This document shows, one piece after another, positions 28,006 to 49,388 of a stretch of DNA of 64,000 bases; within the stretch, counting starts at the first letter, position 1; the number at the start of each line of letters is the position of its first letter. Source of the stretch: Teichococcus rhizosphaerae (GTDB taxonomy: Bacteria; Pseudomonadota; Alphaproteobacteria; Acetobacterales; Acetobacteraceae); NCBI RefSeq assembly GCF_002631185.1, contig NZ_PDNU01000006.1, positions 1 to 64,000 on the forward strand. Reading direction: 5' to 3'. Both the position numbers and the translations under genes were made by a program. The notes under the pieces were generated by a model, which was given only the letters and a program-made list of their open reading frames with translations, was not told the DNA's origin and did not search any database.

Positions 28006-28623
28006 TTATTGTCCTCCCTTGCTACCTCCCCGTTGCAGTTGTGCCAACTGCTGCCGCAACTGCCGCAACTCAGCCTTGAGCGCGGCCACATCCTCAGGCT
28101 CCTCGGCGGCGGAACGGGTGGACGCGGCCGATTCGTCCTTGCGCGGAAACGGGCTGAACAGCGACATGGCGCGCTCCATCATCGCCATGTTCTGCTTGCT
28201 CACCTCTTCCAGCCCGGCGAGCGGGTTGAAGCCGCCCATCGCCTGCTCCACCGAGACCCGCATCTGCTCCTGCTGCCGCGAGAAGCTGCCCATGGCGAAT
28301 TCCAGGTAGCGCGGCACCAGCGATTGCAGGCTGTCGCCATAGAAGCCGATCAGCTGCCGGAGGAAGGAGGTGGGCAGCAGGCTCCGCCCCTTCGCCTCCT
28401 CCTCGACGATGATCTGCGTCAGCACGCCGCGGGTGATGTCGTCGCCCGTCTTGGCGTCATAGACGACGAAATCGCGCCCTTCCCGAACCATGCCCGCCAG
28501 GTCCTCCAGCGTCACATAGGAAGAGGCCTCGGTGTTGTAGAGCCGGCGATTGGCATATTTCTTGATCACAACCGTGGGTTTGGCTTCCGCCTCGGCGCCA
28601 CGCTGCCTTGCCTGTTCGGCCAT
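28006..28623 (-). CDS. phaR: PHB synthesis repressor PhaR
   Basis: PhaR binds DNA and PHB granules and represses phasin and PHB genes until polymer forms. The 205-residue protein has the N-terminal PhaR DNA-binding domain (about residues 15-80), with VVIKKYANRRLYNTEASSYVT and YDAKTGDDITRGVLTQII. A PHB-accumulation domain follows, then a C-terminal coiled coil (ALKAELRQLRQQLAQLQ). A strong GGGAGGAA lies seven bases upstream of the ATG (28631-28638). It is divergent from the PhaE/PhaC-like pair. Confidence 0.95.
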   Translation of the reverse strand: MAEQARQRGAEAEAKPTVVIKKYANRRLYNTEASSYVTLEDLAGMVREGRDFVVYDAKTGDDITRGVLTQIIVEEEAKGRSLLPTSFLRQLIGFYGDSLQSLVPRYLEFAMGSFSRQQEQMRVSVEQAMGGFNPLAGLEEVSKQNMAMMERAMSLFSPFPRKDESAASTRSAAEEPEDVAALKAELRQLRQQLAQLQRGGSKGGQ

Positions 28624-28821
28624 TGCCGCCTTCCTCCCGCCATGTGGTGGTGGTCAGGCTAGCATGGCGCTTGGTGCGGTGCGAACAGGAGGATGGCGCC
28701 TCGGCCCTTCCGTGGCGGCGCCGCGTCGCTATGTTCGCCCGGCGCGGCCCGGCCGGCGGCCGGATGCCTGCGGAGGCGTCTCCCGCCTTCCCGGCCACGT
28801 CGCGCAGGCACAGGATCTGGC

Positions 28822-29661
28822 ATGGCAGGCCCCGAGGACGACGCGCAAAGGAAGCGGCCCGACGCGGCCCGGGAGAGCGGCACCGGTCGTGCCACCGGGG
28901 GCGCCGCCGGTGATGGCGGCCCTGGCGATGGCGGCGCTGGCGATGGCGGCCCTGGCGATGGCGGTTCCGGCCGCGGCGGCCAGGGTGAGGGGAGCCAGGG
29001 CAGACCCGAGGCGCTGGAGAAACTGGCAGAGGATTGGATCACGCTGTGGCAGAGCGAGATCTCGGCACTGGCGGCCGATCGCGAACTGGCGGAAGGCTGG
29101 TCGTCATGGACAGCCTATGGAGCGGCCCTCGGCGCCGCCTGGATGCGCGCCGCCGCCGCGCCGCCGCCATGGCCCGTCCCGCCCGCGCCATGGAGCCGGG
29201 GCTGGGGGGAGCCGGGATGGAACGATCCGGTCTGGGGCATGCCCTGGCCCGGCTTCACGGCGCCCCAGCGGCCTGCTTCCCAGGGCTCTGCTTCCCAGGG
29301 CTCTGCTTCCCAGGGCTCTGCTTCCCCAAGCTCTGCTTCCCAGGGCTCTGCTTTCCGGCCGCCCTTTCCGTTCCCGCCACCGCCTTTCCCCTGGCCCCCC
29401 GCCTCGCCGCCGCCGCCCGGCAATGCCGCGGCGCCGCCCGCCGATGACCCCGCCCCGCCGCGGCCCGCGCCCCCTGCCGCTGCATCTGGGCCTGGCGCTG
29501 CTGCGCGGGATGGGCGCGGTGCTGAGCCTGGACCCGGTGAGCGGGATGCCCTTGTCGCCCGCCTCGCCGAGCTGGAGCGGCGCCTGGCCGGTCTCGAGGG
29601 CCGGCCGGCAGGAGATGCAGCGGATCGCCGGCGCCCTCGCCGCCGGCGGCCATCCGCCTGA
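28822..29661 (+). CDS. PhaE-like / phasin-like partner of the PHA synthase
   Basis: The 279-residue product has a Gly/Asp-rich start with GDGGPGDGGAG repeats and a helical core (about residues 55-105) EALEKLAEDWITLWQSEISA typical of PhaE or phasin-type proteins. A Pro/Trp-rich middle with five 5-residue SQGSA repeats and a C-terminal leucine zipper [20 protein letters not shown] complete it. It likely assists the synthase gene that follows. Its last 218 bp overlap that gene in another frame. Assignment to PhaE is tentative because the sequence is mostly low complexity. Confidence 0.6.
   Translation: MAGPEDDAQRKRPDAARESGTGRATGGAAGDGGPGDGGAGDGGPGDGGSGRGGQGEGSQGRPEALEKLAEDWITLWQSEISALAADRELAEGWSSWTAYGAALGAAWMRAAAAPPPWPVPPAPWSRGWGEPGWNDPVWGMPWPGFTAPQRPASQGSASQGSASQGSASPSSASQGSAFRPPFPFPPPPFPWPPASPPPPGNAAAPPADDPAPPRPAPPAAASGPGAAARDGRGAEPGPGERDALVARLAELERRLAGLEGRPAGDAADRRRPRRRRPSA
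29281..29355 (+). repeat. Five 15-bp in-frame repeats in the PhaE-like gene
   Basis: CAGGGCTCTGCTTCC occurs exactly at 29281, 29296 and 29311. A variant follows at 29326 and another at 29341. Each encodes QGSAS-type pentapeptides, so copy-number changes would keep the frame. Confidence 0.9.
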
Positions 29662-30709
29662 GCAGTTCCGCGCCGCCGTGCTGCGCCGCCTGGCGCGGCA
29701 GGACCGCGCGCTGATCGCAGGCCTCGCCGCCTATCGCCGCCATCCGGCGCGGCGGCGGGCGCCATCCCTTCCCGTGCTGTGGCAGGAGGGCGACAGCCGC
29801 CTGCTGGACTATGGCGGCGAGGGCCCGCCGCTGCTGGTGGTGCCCTCCCTCGTCAACCGCGCCTATGTGATGGATCTCGCCCCGGGCCACTCCATGCTGC
29901 GCGCCCTGGCGGAAGGCGGGGCGGCGGGGGGCGGCTCCCGCGTGCTGCTGCTGGACTGGGGCTGGCCCGACGAGGCGGCGCGCGGCTTCACCCTGACCGA
30001 CTACATCGCCGGGCGGCTGGAGCGCGCCCTGGCGGCGCCGGCGCTGCGGCCGCTCGGGCCGGTGGCGCTGCTCGGCTACTGCATGGGCGGGCTGCTGGCG
30101 CTGGCCGCCGCGCTGCGCCGGCCGGAGCGGCTGCGCGGCCTGGCCCTGCTCGCCACGCCCTGGGACTTCCACGCGGGCGGCGGCGAGGCGCAGGCGCGCG
30201 CCCTCGCCCTGGCCGCCCTGCTGCCGGGCCTGGAGCCGGTGCTGGAGGCTCATGGCACCCTGCCGGTGGACCTGATCCAGACCCTGTTCGCCGGGCTCGA
30301 CCCCTGGGGGGTGGCCGCCAAGTTCCGCGCCTTCGCGGCCATGGACCCGGCCAGCGAGCGTGCCCATCTGTTCGTGGCGCTGGAGGACTGGCTGAACGAT
30401 GGCGTGCCGCTCGCCGCCCCCGTGGCGCGCGAGGCGCTGGGCGGCTGGTATGGCCGCAACGAGACGGCGGCGCTGCGCTGGCGCGTGGCGGGCGCGGCGG
30501 TGGACCCGGCGGCGCTCGCCCTGCCGAGCTTCGTGGCCGTGCCGGGGGCGGACCGCATCGTGCCGCCCGCCTCGGCCATGGCGCTGGCGGCGCGGCTGCC
30601 GGGGCCCAGGGTGCTGCCCGTTCCGGCGGGGCATATCGGCATGGCCGCGGGCGGCCGCGCCGAGGCGGTGCTCTGGCGGCCATTGCGGGAATGGCTGGCG
30701 GGCTTGTAA
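29444..30709 (+). CDS. PhaC-like poly(3-hydroxyalkanoate) synthase
   Basis: The 421-residue alpha/beta hydrolase has a synthase-type box GYCMG with catalytic Cys 213 where lipases have Ser, Asp 370 in GADRIVPP and His 397 in PAGHIGM. The [12 protein letters not shown] and LLDWGWPDE segments are typical of PHA synthases. It would polymerise 3-hydroxybutyryl-CoA at granules. ATG 29444 ([15 protein letters not shown]) gives an N-terminus I consider conserved in the group, but it overlaps the PhaE-like gene by 218 bp. The next ATG candidates (for example 29615) would shorten that. Confidence 0.8.
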
Positions 30710-30851
30710 GCCGGCCATGACGCGGCGCACACTGGCCCGCCACGGTGGCGCGGGACGAGATGCCGCCCGCGCGCCCGGACAGCGCGATGGCCTCGCCGAG
30801 ACACGGCCCCGCAAGGACCGACCGGCCAACACAAGGGGGAGTTACCCAGCC

Positions 30852-32027
30852 ATGACGGATATCGTGATCGCCGCCGCCGCGCGGACACCGGTCGGCGCCT
30901 TCAACGGCGCCTTCGCCGCCCTGCCCGCCCACGACCTCGGCACCATCGCCATCAAGGCCGCGCTGGAGCGCGCCGGCGTCGAGCCCGGCGCGGTGGACGA
31001 GGTCATCATGGGCCAGATCCTGGCCGCCGGCGCCGGGCAGAACCCGGCCCGCCAGGCCGCCATCAACGCCGGCATCCCGGCCGGCGCCACCGCCTTCGGC
31101 ATCAACCAGCTCTGCGGCTCCGGCCTGCGCGCGGTCGCGCTGGCGGCCCAGCAGGTGGCCTCGGGCGACGCCTCCATCGTCGTCGCCGGCGGGCAGGAAA
31201 GCATGACCCAGGCCCCCCACTGCGCCAATCTGCGCGGCGGCGTGAAGATGGGCGACTTCCAGATGATCGACACGATGATCCGGGACGGGCTGTGGGACGC
31301 CTTCAACGGCTACCACATGGGCAACACCGCCGAGAACGTGGCCCAGAAGTACCAGATCAGCCGCGACGAGCAGGACGAGTTCGCCTTCAACAGCCAGCGC
31401 AAGGCGGGCGAGGCGATGAAGGCCGGCGCCTTCCGCGACGAGATCGCCCCCGTCACGGTGAAGGGCCGCAAGGGCGACACCGTGGTCGAGAACGACGAGT
31501 ACCCGAAGCCCGACACCAGCCGCGAGATCCTGGCCAAGCTGCGCCCGGCCTTCGCCAGGGACGGCTCGGTGACCGCCGGCAACGCCTCCGGCATCAATGA
31601 CGGCGCCGCGGCGCTGGTGGTGATGTCGGCGGCCGAGGCGGCGCGGCGCGGCCTGACGCCGCTGGCGCGCATCGCCTCCTGGGCCACGGCGGGCGTCGAT
31701 CCGGCGATCATGGGCACCGGCCCCATCCCCGCCAGCCGCAAGGCGCTGCAGAAGGCGGGCTGGAACATCCAGGACCTCGACCTGATCGAGGCCAACGAGG
31801 CCTTCGCGGCGCAGGCCTGCGCGGTGAACAAGGACCTGGGCTGGGACACCGCCAAGGTGAACGTGCATGGCGGCGCCATCGCGCTGGGCCACCCGATCGG
31901 CGCCTCGGGCGCGCGCGTGCTGACCACCCTGCTCTACGGCATGAAGGCGCGCGGCGCGAAGAAGGGCCTGGCCACGCTGTGCATCGGCGGCGGCATGGGC
32001 GTCGCCATGTGCCTCGAGGCGGCCTGA
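30852..32027 (+). CDS. phaA: Acetyl-CoA C-acetyltransferase (beta-ketothiolase)
   Basis: PhaA condenses two acetyl-CoA into acetoacetyl-CoA, the first step of PHB synthesis. The 391-residue protein has the acyl-carrying Cys 88 in [10 protein letters not shown], the catalytic His 347 in [12 protein letters not shown] and Cys 377 in LCIGGGMG. Substrate-loop features NEAFAAQA are present. Context beside the PHB repressor and synthase favours the biosynthetic role over fatty-acid breakdown. AAGGGGGAG upstream is a good ribosome-binding site. A double hairpin terminator follows. Confidence 0.95.
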
Positions 32028-38116: not shown

Positions 38117-38839
38117 TCAGTACATGTGCTGCCCGCCATTGATGGAGAGGGTGGAGCCGGTGATGAAGTCGGCATCGTCGGCGGTCAGGAAGCAGACGCC
38201 GCGCGCGATGTCGTCCGCCGTGCCGAGGCGGCCGCGCGGGATGCGGGCGATGATCTTCTGCAGCACGTCCTCCGGCACGGCGCGGACCATCTCGGTGTCC
38301 ACATAGCCGGGCGCGATGGCGTTCACGGTGATCGAGGAGCGCGCCCCCTCCTGCGCCAGCGCCTTGGTGAAGCCGTGGATGCCGGACTTGGCGGCGGCGT
38401 AGTTCACCTGGCCATACTGCCCGGCCTGTCCGTTGATCGAGCCGATGTTGACGATGCGGCCGAACTTGCGCTCCGTCATGCCGTCCCAGACCAGCTTGCA
38501 GAGGTTGAAGCAGGAGCCGAGGTTGGTGTCGATCACCTCGTCCCACATGCGGCGGTCCATGCGCTTCATGGTGGCGTCGCGGGTGATGCCGGCATTGTTG
38601 ACCAGGATCTCGACCGGGCCGTGCTCGGCCTCGATCCTCGCCACCGCCGCCTTGCATGCCTCGAAGTCGGCGACGTCGAACTTGATGGTGGGGATGCCGG
38701 TCCGCTCGGTGAAGGCGGCGGCGGCGGCGTCGTTGCCGGCATAGGAGGCGACCACCTTGCGGCCGGCCTTCTGCAACTGCTCGCTGATCGCGGCACCGAT
38801 GCCGCGCTGACCACCGGTGACGAGGGCCACTCGTGCCAT
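38117..38839 (-). CDS. phaB: Acetoacetyl-CoA reductase (NADPH)
   Basis: PhaB reduces acetoacetyl-CoA to (R)-3-hydroxybutyryl-CoA for PHB synthesis. The 240-residue SDR has the cofactor motif TGGQRGIG, NNAGITRD, the catalytic Ser in NIGSINGQAG and the Tyr-x3-Lys in YAAAKSG. The QYGQVNYAAAK stretch and the C-terminal GGQHMY are typical of PhaB rather than FabG. AAGGAGG lies nine bases upstream of ATG 38839. It is about 6 kb from phaA, so it is not in one operon with it. Confidence 0.92.
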   Translation of the reverse strand: MARVALVTGGQRGIGAAISEQLQKAGRKVVASYAGNDAAAAAFTERTGIPTIKFDVADFEACKAAVARIEAEHGPVEILVNNAGITRDATMKRMDRRMWDEVIDTNLGSCFNLCKLVWDGMTERKFGRIVNIGSINGQAGQYGQVNYAAAKSGIHGFTKALAQEGARSSITVNAIAPGYVDTEMVRAVPEDVLQKIIARIPRGRLGTADDIARGVCFLTADDADFITGSTLSINGGQHMY

Positions 38840-39043
38840 AGGCGAAGTCCTCCTTGCTGCTGTCTTGGAGACGCCCCGCGAAGCCTGGCGCGGCGTCACG
38901 GGCACATGGCATCACAGCAGCGCGCCAGATGCCACGTCATTGTAAGGATCGGTCCGCAGGAAAACCGGCCCGGGCGGGGATCGCCGGGGCCGGCCCTGGG
39001 GAGCTCGGGGATTCGGGAGGGGAATGCGGAGGCGGCCGCCCGC

Positions 39044-45799: not shown

Positions 45800-46738
45800 T
45801 CAGCCGGCCTCCTCCAGCACCCGCTCCAGGCTGGCCGGCGTGGCGATGGCGGCCGAGACGGCCGGCACCATGCCGCGGAACTCCGACGCGCGCGGCGAGC
45901 GCGCCCGCCAGGCCAGGCCCAGCCCCCGCCCCTGCGGCATCTCCAGCGGGCGCAGCGCCACCCGGGCGCCGGCCAGCACGCCGCCCTCCACCGCCAGCCG
46001 CGGCAGCAGCGTGATCCCGAGCCCGCCCGCCACCATCTGCACCAGCGTGTGCAGGCTGGTGGCGGCGAAGGTGTCGCCCCCGCCGGCGCCGGGCAGGCCG
46101 CAGGCGGCCAGCGCATGGTCGCGCAGGCAGTGGCCATCCTCCAGCAGCAGCAGCCGCTCCGCCCCCAGCGCGGCCAGCGGCACGGCGGGCAGCGCCGCCA
46201 GCCTGTGCCCCTCGGGCAGCGCGACGACGAAGGGGTCCTCCGCCACCCGCACCACCTCCGCCTCGGGCAGCACGGCGGGCAGGGCCAGCAGCAGCAGGTC
46301 CAGCCGGCCGGAGGCCAGGTCCTCGGCCAGCCGCTCCGTCAGGTCCTCGCGCAGCCAGAGCTGCAGCCGGGGAAAGGCCTCGCGCAGCGCCGGCATCAGC
46401 CGCGGCAGCAGGAAGGGCCCGATGGTCGGGATCACCCCCAGGCGCAGCGGCCCGGCCAGCGGGTCGCGCGCCGCCGCCGCCGTTTCCGACACCGCCGACA
46501 GGGCGGCGAGCGCGGCGCGGGCGCGGCGCACGAGCTCCAACCCGAGCGGCGTGAAGACCGGCCGCTTGCCGGGTCCGCGCTCCAGGATGGAGGCATCGAG
46601 CTGGCGCTCCAGGGCGATGATGCCGGCCGACAGGGTGGACTGCGTCACCGCGCAGGCCGCAGCCGCCCGCCCGAAATGGCCGAGATCGGCCAGGGCGACG
46701 AGGTAGCGGAGCTGCTGCGGGCTGGGGAGAGGGGTCAT
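45800..46738 (-). CDS. oxyR: Peroxide sensor OxyR (LysR family)
   Basis: The 312-residue regulator has an N-terminal LysR helix-turn-helix (QLRYLVALADLGHFGRAA, then VTQSTLSAGI) and an effector domain with the two redox cysteines of OxyR, Cys 204 and Cys 213 in GHCLRDHALAAC. Their nine-residue spacing is the same as Cys199-Cys208 of E. coli. Oxidation by H2O2 forms a disulfide and activates transcription. It is divergent from ahpC, the usual target, with a 131-bp shared upstream region. Confidence 0.94.
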   Translation of the reverse strand: MTPLPSPQQLRYLVALADLGHFGRAAAACAVTQSTLSAGIIALERQLDASILERGPGKRPVFTPLGLELVRRARAALAALSAVSETAAAARDPLAGPLRLGVIPTIGPFLLPRLMPALREAFPRLQLWLREDLTERLAEDLASGRLDLLLLALPAVLPEAEVVRVAEDPFVVALPEGHRLAALPAVPLAALGAERLLLLEDGHCLRDHALAACGLPGAGGGDTFAATSLHTLVQMVAGGLGITLLPRLAVEGGVLAGARVALRPLEMPQGRGLGLAWRARSPRASEFRGMVPAVSAAIATPASLERVLEEAG

Positions 46739-46869: not shown

Positions 46870-47442
46870 ATGCTGACCGTTGGCGACAAGTTTCCCGCCT
46901 TCAACCTGACCGCCGTGAAGGGCGGCCCGGAAGGTCTGGAAGGCCCCGGCAAGTCCTTCGTCGACATCTCCAACGAGTCCGATGCCGGCAAGTGGAAGAT
47001 CGTCTTCTTCTGGCCGAAGGACTTCACCTTCATCTGTCCGACCGAGATCGCGGCCTTCGGCAAGCTGAACCAGGAGTTCGAGGACCGTGACGCCGTGGTC
47101 TATGGCGCCTCGACCGACAGCGAGTTCGTGCACCTGAACTGGCGCGTCCACAACAACGACATCCGCGACCTGCCCTTCCCGATGCTGGCCGACGTGAAGC
47201 GCGAGCTGTCCGCCGCCCTCGGCATCCTGGACAAGCAGGCCGGCGTCGCGCTGCGCGCCACCTTCATCGTCGACCCCGAGGGCACCATCCAGTGGGCCTC
47301 GGTGAACGGCCTGAACGTCGGCCGCAACCCGCAGGAGGTGATCCGCGTGCTGGACGCCCTCCAGACCGACGAGCTCTGCCCCTGCAACTGGAACAAGGGC
47401 GGCGACACGCTGAAGCCCGCCGAGCTGTTCCAGGCCGCCTGA
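46870..47442 (+). CDS. ahpC: Alkyl hydroperoxide reductase AhpC-type peroxiredoxin
   Basis: The 190-residue 2-Cys peroxiredoxin has the peroxidatic Cys 56 in [10 protein letters not shown] and resolving cysteines near the C-terminus in [10 protein letters not shown] (Cys 170/172). This C-terminal CPC is typical of AhpC proteins that are recycled by AhpD. It reduces hydrogen peroxide and organic peroxides in the cytosol. It is divergent from oxyR and followed by ahpD. Confidence 0.94.
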
Positions 47443-47650: not shown

Positions 47651-48181
47651 ATGTCGCTCGAAGCCCTGCGCGCGCGCCTGCCCGACTATGCCCGCGACCT
47701 GAAGCTGAACCTCGGCAGCCTGGCCACCGAGCCGGCGCTGGACCAGCAGAAGCTGGCCGGCACCTTCGTGGCCAGCGCCATCGCCAGCCGCAACGCCGAG
47801 GTGATCCGCGCCATCGTCGCCGAGTTCGGCCCGAAGCTGTCGCCGGAGGCGCTGACCGCCGCCAAGGCCGCCGCCGCCATCATGGGCATGAACAACGTCT
47901 ACTACCGCTTCACCCACCTGGTGGGCGGCGACTATCCGGGCCTGCCCGCCAAGCTGCGGATGAACGTCATCGGCAAGCCCGGCGTCGAGAAGGTGGATTT
48001 CGAGCTCTGGTCGCTGGCCGTTTCCGCCATCAATGGCTGCGGCATGTGCATGGAGGCGCATGAGAAGGTGGTGAAGCATGGCGGGGTGAGCACCGAGCAG
48101 GTGCAGGCCGCCGTGCGCATCGCTTCCGTGGTGCACGCGGTCGCCGGCGTGATCGACGCCGAGGACGCGCTCGCCGCCTGA
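47651..48181 (+). CDS. ahpD: AhpD-family alkylhydroperoxidase
   Basis: AhpD hands electrons from lipoylated enzymes to AhpC. The 176-residue all-helical protein contains the active-site C-x-x-C and His, [12 protein letters not shown] (Cys 130, Cys 133, His 137), and the preceding [11 protein letters not shown] segment seen in AhpD. GGAGG lies upstream of ATG 47651. Its position 208 bp after ahpC is the usual arrangement. A strong terminator follows at 48211. Confidence 0.93.
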
Positions 48182-48246: not shown

Positions 48247-48344
48247 CGTTGTGCAACCTCCGCACCGCCCGGATGTTATGCAGATGGCGCATGAGGGGTC
48301 GTTGAAAATGCAGGCAGATATCGTGTTGCAGCGCGAAAAACTGC

Positions 48345-48372
48345 TTGCATACGAACGACCTTGGACTTAAGT
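48345..48372 (+). promoter_or_regulatory. Candidate promoter of mmgR
   Basis: TTGCAT (48345-48350) and TTAAGT (48367-48372) are 16 bases apart in an AT-rich stretch. They place the transcript start near 48380, at the base of the first sRNA hairpin. Confidence 0.45.
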
Positions 48373-48379
48373 TCCCTCT

Positions 48380-48459
48380 CGCAGCAACGCCCTGCGTTGT
48401 TGTCTTTCTTGGACGTTTCCTCCCTAAACTCGGCGGTGCTTCGGCACCGCCTTTTTTTT
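48380..48459 (+). ncRNA. mmgR: Trans-acting sRNA MmgR (alpha-r8 family)
   Basis: The RNA is predicted to be about 80 nt. A 5' hairpin AGCAACGC-CCT-GCGTTGTT (48383-48401) leads to a single-stranded region with the exact 10-mer TTTCCTCCCT (48416-48425). A terminator follows in which GGCGGTGC pairs with GCACCGCC around a TTCG loop (48432-48451), then eight T residues. The 10-mer plus a rho-independent terminator, next to an N-formylglutamate amidohydrolase gene, is the published hallmark of the alpha-r8 family. In Sinorhizobium meliloti MmgR limits PHB accumulation. No open frame explains this region. Only the exact 5' end is uncertain. Confidence 0.88.
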
Positions 48460-48512
48460 GCGTTCGCGCACATTCCGGCGCATGCCGCACCATGCCGGCA
48501 TGCGCCTGGCGG

Positions 48513-49388
48513 TCAGCCGCGCAGGAAGGCCCAGTCCATCTTCGTCAGCGCCGCGATCATGGCGGTGAGGTCGCGCTGGAGCTGACCCATGGAAGGCAGG
48601 CGCTCGATCGCCGCCTCGTCCATGTAGAGGCTGCGCGCCATCTCGATCTGCAGCACATGCACCGCCTCGCGCGGGCGGCCGTAGTGGCGCGTCACATAGC
48701 CGCCGGCATAGGGGTCATTGCGCCGCACCCGGTAGCCCATCGACCAGAGCAGCTCCTCCATCCGGCGCACCGCGCGGGGCGCGCAGGCGGTGCCATGCGC
48801 GTCGCCCAGCACCATGTCGGGCGCGTTGTGCGGCTGCGCGGGGTGGGTCGGCATGGAATGGCAATCGACCACCAGGCAGCAGCCGAACAGCGCCTTCGAC
48901 TCGGCGATCAGCCCGCTCAGCGCCGCGTGGTAGGGCTGCCAGCAGCGCTGCACCCGCTCCTCCGCCTCGCGGAAGGGCAGGCGCCGGCGATAGACCGGCT
49001 CGCCGCTGGCGACGATGCGGGCGATGGTGCCGAGCCCCGCCCCCACCCGCGGGCTGGCGCTGTTCACCCAGGAGGGCAGTGGCCCGTCGAACATCGCCGG
49101 GTCCAGCTCCCACGGCTCGCGGTTGGCGTCGCAATAGACGCGCGGAAAGGTGGCGGCCAGCAGCGGAACGCCATGCAGGGGCGCCGCGGCGAACAGCTCG
49201 TCGACGAAGCCGTCTTCCGAGCGCCGCACCGAGCGCGCGTCGAGCCGCGATTCGGCCAGGAACGCCGCCGGGTAGTCGCGCCCCGAATGCGGCGAGGCGA
49301 ACACCAGCGGCGCCCGCCACGCCGCCGGGCGCGAGAGCAGGAAGGGGCCGGGCTGCTGCCCGGCGGAGAGCGCGAGTGGAAGATCCAT
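48513..49388 (-). CDS. N-formylglutamate amidohydrolase family protein
   Basis: The 291-residue protein has APLVFASPHSGRDYP, the RSEDGFVDELF segment, FPRVYCDANREPWELDP and DCHSMP, the metal-binding and substrate motifs of the N-formylglutamate amidohydrolase family. Members hydrolyse N-formylglutamate to glutamate and formate in histidine breakdown, but no other hut genes are here, so the true substrate is uncertain. It converges on mmgR, and this neighbour relationship is conserved across alphaproteobacteria. Confidence 0.92.
   Translation of the reverse strand: MDLPLALSAGQQPGPFLLSRPAAWRAPLVFASPHSGRDYPAAFLAESRLDARSVRRSEDGFVDELFAAAPLHGVPLLAATFPRVYCDANREPWELDPAMFDGPLPSWVNSASPRVGAGLGTIARIVASGEPVYRRRLPFREAEERVQRCWQPYHAALSGLIAESKALFGCCLVVDCHSMPTHPAQPHNAPDMVLGDAHGTACAPRAVRRMEELLWSMGYRVRRNDPYAGGYVTRHYGRPREAVHVLQIEMARSLYMDEAAIERLPSMGQLQRDLTAMIAALTKMDWAFLRG

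Follow-up and report, generated by a model that had tools for sequence, protein, structure and literature searches.

An alpha-r8/MmgR-type small RNA gene preceded by a PhaR-type palindrome in Teichococcus rhizosphaerae

The small RNA locus

The window, the whole stretch of 64,000 nucleotides of T. rhizosphaerae DNA that was analysed, carries between ahpD and a convergent gene of the N-formylglutamate amidohydrolase (FGase) family a predicted gene that, judged by covariance score and fold, is an alpha-r8/MmgR small RNA (sRNA) gene and a further member of a known family (Table 1). In a cmscan search of the whole window against Rfam two matches were obtained, one tRNA and RF00519, labelled in Rfam as suhB, 'Makes More Granules Regulator RNA (mmgR)', the latter at 48395-48466 of the plus strand with 59.3 bits (E 1.1e-9, gathering cut-off 41) over all 77 positions. 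The name alpha-r8/MmgR proposed in the first-pass annotation is borne out by this score. A model built from relatives, R1, gives 48381-48464 a score of 89.3 bits; its 48 training rows comprise the window itself, 46 FGase loci and the second copy of the same genome.

Table 1. Positions in the window of the sRNA gene, its elements and the surrounding genes.
Feature	Position	Strand	Basis and remarks
phaR	28006-28623	-	TIGR01848 151.3 bits, above cut-off; PF07879
PhaC-like frame	29570-30709		TIGR01836 (class III) 126 bits, far under cut-off 365
phaA, a thiolase	30849-32027		TIGR01930 above cut-off; PhaA equivalog below its own cut-off
phaB	38117-38905		TIGR01829 347 bits, above cut-off
OxyR-like LysR regulator	45800-46738	-	Best NCBIfam match OxyR, below cut-off
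ahpC-like peroxiredoxin	46870-47442	+	PF00578
ahpD, upstream of sRNA	47651-48181	+	TIGR00777 242.5 bits
PhaR-type operator box 1, TGTTGCAGCGCGAAA	48324-48338	+	Core TGCAGCGCG at 48327-48335
Inferred promoter, TTGCAT (48345-48350), 17 nt, TAAGTT (48368-48373)	48345-48373	+	Promoter alignment
Degenerate box 2, just the GCAGCA half-site remaining	48374-48387	+	In many relatives TGCATCGCAGCA
Predicted alpha-r8/MmgR sRNA gene, class I copy	48380-48459	+	RF00519 and model R1; predicted transcript ~80 nt
5' hairpin, AGCAACG/UGCGUUGUUG	48383-48401	+	Fold
Conserved 10-mer seed UUUCCUCCCU, anti-Shine-Dalgarno-like	48416-48425	+	Exact match, inside CUUGGACGUUUCCUCCCUAAACU
Intrinsic terminator, 8-bp GC stem, UUCG loop, T8	48432-48459	+	Fold
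FGase, N-formylglutamate amidohydrolase family	48513-49388	-	PF05013 E 1.1e-75; convergent, synteny marker

With both strands of the window considered, the 10-mer TTTCCTCCCT occurs exactly just once (shuffles predict 0.01), and the surrounding CUUGGACGUUUCCUCCCUAAACU does not vary among the 47 class I rows of alignment A2. The RNA from 48383 to 48459 folds with -30.1 kcal/mol versus -15.8 for shuffles (z -5.95), so that the 10-mer, the upstream hairpin and the TTCG terminator described earlier were all recovered, by exact match and by folding. In the alignment of relatives a constant core round the 10-mer is combined with 5' arms of differing sequence; nevertheless the 5' hairpin folds in all 52 copies, window included, and 37 of the 41 distinct 5' segments are equalled in folding by no more than 2 of 50 shuffles. 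The intrinsic terminator is equally present in 52/52 copies, with compensatory pair changes among relatives. In the 77-nt fold the seed is unpaired with a weak hairpin on its 5' side, and in a longer fold three seed bases are weakly paired; at least nine of the ten seed bases are unpaired in the minimum-energy fold in just 9 of 52 copies. The 5' end of the predicted sRNA was placed from the promoter alignment. A sigma-70 consensus scan did not call the promoter at 48345-48373, which is a point in favour of a chance resemblance or a pseudogene, an explanation that is hardly conceivable in view of the covariance score, the identical core in the 47 class I rows and the conserved promoter and synteny.

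The FGase gene, whose product is 95% identical to the FGase of Pseudoroseomonas aestuarii, lies 53 nt from the convergent sRNA, with a tRNA further downstream; its adjacency, put forward in the first-pass annotation as the published signature of alpha-r8, agrees with PMC12559287. When species genomes were scanned with the FGase protein and the best 80 of 161 loci were taken, R1 located the sRNA at 54 of these 80 loci of other genomes, always 3' of FGase and convergent, in 43 cases within 232 nt and in the other eleven between 350 nt and 2.5 kb away; R1 was trained on 46 of the 54 and not on the remaining eight. Two of the 26 loci lacking the sRNA have less than 25 nt of contig at this place. 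One contig filed as Nostoc (L042) carries FGase and an alpha-r8 of Acetobacteraceae type and is probably a contamination.

With respect to PHB metabolism, the first-pass annotation had placed the sRNA within 20 kb of phaR, a phaE/phaC-like pair, phaA and phaB and considered this neighbourhood meaningful. The distance is right (phaR lies 20.0 kb away) and phaR and phaB are confirmed, while a thiolase stands for phaA, the 'phaE' frame (28693-29661) matched no NCBIfam family and the PhaC-like frame stays below its cut-off. A functional cluster would draw on the presence of phaR, phaA and phaB within 20 kb here and on phaB alone lying near the sRNA in L012 (86% identity) and L015 (91%), six further matches at 29-33% identity being taken for other reductases. 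On the other hand, eight other genomes among the matches listed carry phaR on the contig of the FGase-adjacent copy, at a distance of 229 kb to 2.5 Mb; the sRNA-phaR distance is 841 kb in G135, where FGase lies 2.5 kb away on the same strand, and 455 kb in G062, where FGase is not adjacent, and the nearest pair among the matches listed involves an unlinked copy (G024, 86 kb). Within the same genus, phaR, phaA and phaB are absent from the 40 kb preceding the sRNA in G016 and from the 20 kb preceding it in G107. As, in addition, the single PhaC_N synthase match of the T. rhizosphaerae genome is on contig C92 and its two phasin matches are on contigs C92 and C52, outside the window, proximity is uninformative: the closeness of the sRNA to PHB genes is an accident of this genome without a role, and functional clustering, rejected on the sRNA-phaR distances and the same-genus upstream regions, is very improbable.

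Family spread and paralogue classes

Among 150 Acetobacteraceae genomes 123 have an RF00519 match, which exceeds the cut-off in 120; for the class as a whole, 57 of 114 genomes have one with E no higher than 1e-6. The T. rhizosphaerae genome is counted in both sets, and stricter filters apply. The FGase match is present in 26 of the 27 Acetobacteraceae genomes without RF00519, of which the 20 listed are of 1.9-3.7 Mb; in 14 FGase flanks from 11 of these 27 genomes no alpha-r8 remnant was found, with 18.9 bits as the best score and the 10-mer absent by eye from the stretch concerned. The sRNA and phaC occur together in 104 genomes, the sRNA only in 19, phaC only in 1 and neither in 26; the corresponding numbers for phaR are 116, 7, 1 and 26. 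This co-occurrence is strong but carries little weight, as one clade losing all of these genes could produce it.

A second alpha-r8 gene of T. rhizosphaerae (C37:173834-173911, 50.3 bits) is also above the cut-off, weaker RF00519 matches of 26.8 bits or less having been set aside, and lies between genes that we take from their sequence to be proS and dnaE. It has the seed of class I and a different 5' domain and promoter region. With ten other copies, nine of which adjoin a proS-like gene, it has in common a strong 5' hairpin and, ahead of the seed, GTGTGACTGGCG, and the seed and the bases just 3' of it are identical in this proS-linked class and class I. A further genome carries three tandem alpha-r8 copies (L092 1257-1860), each with one PhaR-core box.

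A PhaR-type operator at the promoter

Alignment of the upstream regions displays a promoter layout in which TGYTGCRNYGCRAAA is followed by CTTGC, CCTANNTT and, in many loci, TGCATCGCAGCA at the predicted start. Both TGYTGCRNYGCRAAA and TGCATCGCAGCA fit the core YGCRNYGCR published for PhaR of S. meliloti, where PhaR is reported to shift the mmgR promoter in EMSA and altered palindromes to fail (PMC12542648). In the window the putative PhaR-type palindrome, box 1, is located just upstream of the -35 element assigned by the alignment. A link between the sRNA and PHB, missed in the first-pass annotation, likely runs through a predicted promoter operator.

A core within 125 bp is found in 52 of 52 promoters (51 FGase-linked loci and the window), compared with a mean of 11.9 and a maximum of 21 in dinucleotide shuffles and with 16.8% in random stretches from these loci; of the 54 FGase-sRNA loci, this count omits L013 and L081, whose contigs extend less than 150 nt upstream, as well as L042, which has no 15-mer anchor match. 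Two or more cores are present in 32 of the 52, versus a shuffle mean of 1.6 and maximum of 5. At fixed places box 1 occurs in 48 promoters, box 2 in 34 and both in 30, with a spacing of 47-49 bp in 29 of the 30; the single-box promoters are 18 with box 1 only and 4 with box 2 only. The window and the ten other Pseudoroseomonas-group loci scanned have kept box 1 and lost box 2. The 12-mer TGCRNYGCASMA, derived from the footprint of PhaR of B. diazoefficiens (PMC6201568), occurs on either strand in 36 of 52 promoters and is not found in the window, where box 1 ends in G. Box 1 takes nineteen different 9-mer forms with 0.1 bit at the centre base, and its GC steps are invariant by the site selection itself and hence no evidence; beyond the selected pattern, the conserved bases are T at -3 (1.9 bits) and A at +11 (2.0 bits).

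In a second set of 51 copies, partly of the same species, the core is present in 15 of 15 FGase-linked copies, defined by FGase within the 3-kb locus, and in 29 of 36 unlinked ones, many of which are of class I type and carry PhaR-type boxes. In the proS-linked class, 8 of 11 copies are without a core PhaR box; among those with a core are the T. rhizosphaerae copy (TGCGTTGCA at -79) and the G016 copy. Class-wide, with one locus per family, the core is found in 20 of 28 loci versus 14% of random stretches (binomial 1e-11), the set being drawn from the 56 other genomes that had a match, of which the 29 with the highest scores were taken, less L272, which was not located; the eight loci without a core box count against a PhaR link. 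In a further round of promoter scoring, L240, L256 and L257 yielded no scored promoter.

Similar sites occur elsewhere. The 15-mer TGYTGCRNYGCRMAA, composed after the sRNA and phaP promoters had been inspected, has 9 sites in the 4.65 Mb genome and none in the reversed control. One site is that of the sRNA promoter itself, one lies ~165 bp ahead of the predicted start of the C92 phasin, one 56 bp before a weak phasin-like protein (L212 974-1444 on the minus strand, PF09361 E 0.0099, below cut-off) that may be an unannotated phasin, others before a gene of the BacA family, a DUF1194 gene and a frame presumed from its sequence to be lpxC, and three of the nine are without an assigned gene. Among phasins of the genus, a count that leaves out G107:C39 (one of 25) and six matches from other families, the 14-mer form is present within 300 bp in 11 of 24 versus 4.6% of random stretches and the core in 18 of 24 versus 38%; on the coding strand the 14-mer is found in 36 of 52 sRNA promoters. 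One of the two phasin matches of T. rhizosphaerae lacks the extended box, which counts against the PhaR reading. PhaR-core boxes were also seen in the divergent phaR/PhaC-like intergenic region (TGGTGCGGTGCGAA at 28672-28685), where autoregulation is possible, and on the minus strand around 46782 in the oxyR/ahpC intergenic region (TGCTGCAGCGCACA).

Boxes in genomes with and without PHB synthase

Twelve genomes of at least 99% completeness have kept alpha-r8 while a PhaC_N match is absent, which suggests that the role of the sRNA is wider than PHB; PhaC_N may miss class III synthases. The class I copies of these twelve genomes, which span 8 genera, have two boxes in 0/12 and none in 6/12, all six box-less promoters being contributed by three genera with two genomes each; the second copy of one of the PhaC_N-negative genomes (G123) has one box. 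Among 15 FGase-linked copies of PhaC_N-positive genomes, 11 have two boxes and 4 have one. Less complete PhaC_N-negative genomes (G004, G027, G080, G087 and G103, 84-94%) go against the trend with two boxes each; a further one with the sRNA, G009, has no box, and the seventh, G069, was left out of box scoring. With due caution, the contrast between the twelve genomes and the 15 PhaC_N-positive copies fits an operator that PHB metabolism maintains and an sRNA that has further roles.

The palindromes might instead belong to the core promoter or be bound by a different regulator that recognises TGC. The boxes abut the -35 element and the start site; six near-complete genomes with phaR have box-less class I promoters, and boxes are present in 7 of 7 copies from six PhaC_N-positive genomes that lack a PF07879 (phaR) match, both of which count against the PhaR reading. 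The latter genomes, however, are incomplete drafts (77-96%), and the box-less promoters keep -35/-10-like elements by eye, so that the boxes appear dispensable for the promoter. As, moreover, the core equals the published PhaR core, the footprint-derived 12-mer recurs in most of the promoters (PMC6201568) and the same form precedes phaP, an origin of the boxes other than PhaR is considered unlikely.

On a wider scale, chances are about even that alpha-r8 belonged ancestrally to the PhaR regulon throughout Alphaproteobacteria. The double operator of Acetobacteraceae, with its spacing of ~48 bp, would clamp the promoter and would erode to a single box or none in lineages that lost the PHB synthase but kept the sRNA, and duplicates would have split into a PhaR-controlled class and a mostly box-less proS-linked class with one shared seed. 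This extended reading is rated lower because the second copy of T. rhizosphaerae itself has the core match at -79.

Candidate targets

Perfect complements of the seed, AGGGAGGAAA, occur six times in the genome, two of them being the sRNA genes. Two are at Shine-Dalgarno position, 4 and 6 nt before start codons, the first belonging to an AMP-binding ligase gene (PF00501) and the second to a gene that, from its sequence, we take to encode a periplasmic solute-binding protein. A CrfA-like sponge of seed complements was rejected, the remaining sites being one intergenic (C25:47808) and one without a nearby gene start. The former region (L119, G000:C25:47808) contains two repeats of GGAGGAAAGGGGAGGGAGGAAA near an ahcY-like gene, a U-tract terminator being absent by eye.

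Among 55 start regions, taken from home-made gene calls with approximate starts, those of the ligase and the binding protein, added to the set on purpose, rank first and second for pairing energy. The PHB gene starts rank an unremarkable 8th to 53rd, and the phasin and phaR starts are only 11th, 15th and 8th, which counts against PHB targets. The phaR mRNA as a conserved target was also rejected, as its Shine-Dalgarno sequence fits the seed in 2 of 21 genomes, T. rhizosphaerae and one of the same genus.

These rankings bear on the alternative that the sRNA regulates nutrient uptake in general, as SisA-D do in Caulobacter, a system into which PhaR feeds the carbon status while PHB genes are not direct targets. 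The sole perfect complements at Shine-Dalgarno position precede the ligase and the putative solute-binding protein genes, pairing to PHB gene starts is unremarkable, and the sRNA persists in the twelve near-complete genomes without PhaC_N. In Caulobacter, the 10-mer of SisA represses mRNA by pairing upstream of the start codon, and a TonB receptor is among the targets (PMC12559287). On the other hand, the PhaR core in every one of the 52 promoters ties the sRNA to PHB, and reviews describe that MmgR of S. meliloti lowers phasins and PHB. The alternative is a tentative one, somewhat on the doubtful side of even.

Proposed mechanism and relation to known systems

The preferred reading, held with reasonable confidence, is that of an alpha-r8 (MmgR/SisA-type) trans-acting sRNA that is repressed by PhaR when PHB is scarce and brakes storage and uptake genes via its seed. 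Its support in the sequence consists of family membership, FGase synteny, the seed, the terminator and the palindrome shared with the phasin promoter. PhaR, encoded 20 kb away, would act in trans on box 1 and repress the sRNA while PHB is scarce; PHB granules would titrate PhaR, upon which the sRNA would be made together with phasin. With Hfq, the gene of which is present in the genome, the UUUCCUCCCU seed would then cover the Shine-Dalgarno sequences of target mRNAs and lower their translation, which would hold back genes of storage and uptake.

An ortholog of this kind was to be expected; the value of the locus lies in a testable rule, that PhaR probably switches the sRNA far from rhizobia. 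If so, the PHB level would set an anti-Shine-Dalgarno RNA, and the two paralogue classes and the synthase-less lineages that have the RNA but lost the boxes provide natural controls for PHB versus non-PHB roles. A literature search, with Lagares 2016 and Ceizel Borella 2018 outside its scope, did not find mmgR together with Acetobacteraceae or Rhodospirillales; for mmgR and PhaR the relevant ones among the matches listed are reviews, the PhaR study of S. meliloti and a Methylorubrum paper, which cites the S. meliloti PhaR result and has sRNAs outside its study.

The closest counterpart is S. meliloti MmgR (RF00519), with which the 10-mer, the terminator, the size and the PhaR-type promoter palindrome are shared, the S. 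meliloti mmgR site CAATTGTGCACCGCAGCATTA resembling box 2 of the relatives (PMC12542648). In contrast to S. meliloti, for which one alpha-r8 gene is given in PMC12559287, two are above cut-off here, and the box kept is box 1, upstream of the -35 element. As in Caulobacter crescentus SisA-D, the same seed is used, FGase adjoins (in the case of SisA) and paralogues have unrelated promoters (PMC12559287). Caulobacter, however, has four copies and a known sponge, CrfA, a clear counterpart of which was not seen in T. rhizosphaerae. The AbcR sRNAs (alpha-r15) likewise possess a CU-rich anti-Shine-Dalgarno motif and are described in PMC7143759 as Hfq-binding and partly homologous to RF00519; while AbcR is 114-120 nt long with three stem-loops and two motifs, the window RNA has a predicted length of ~80 nt, one motif and FGase synteny.
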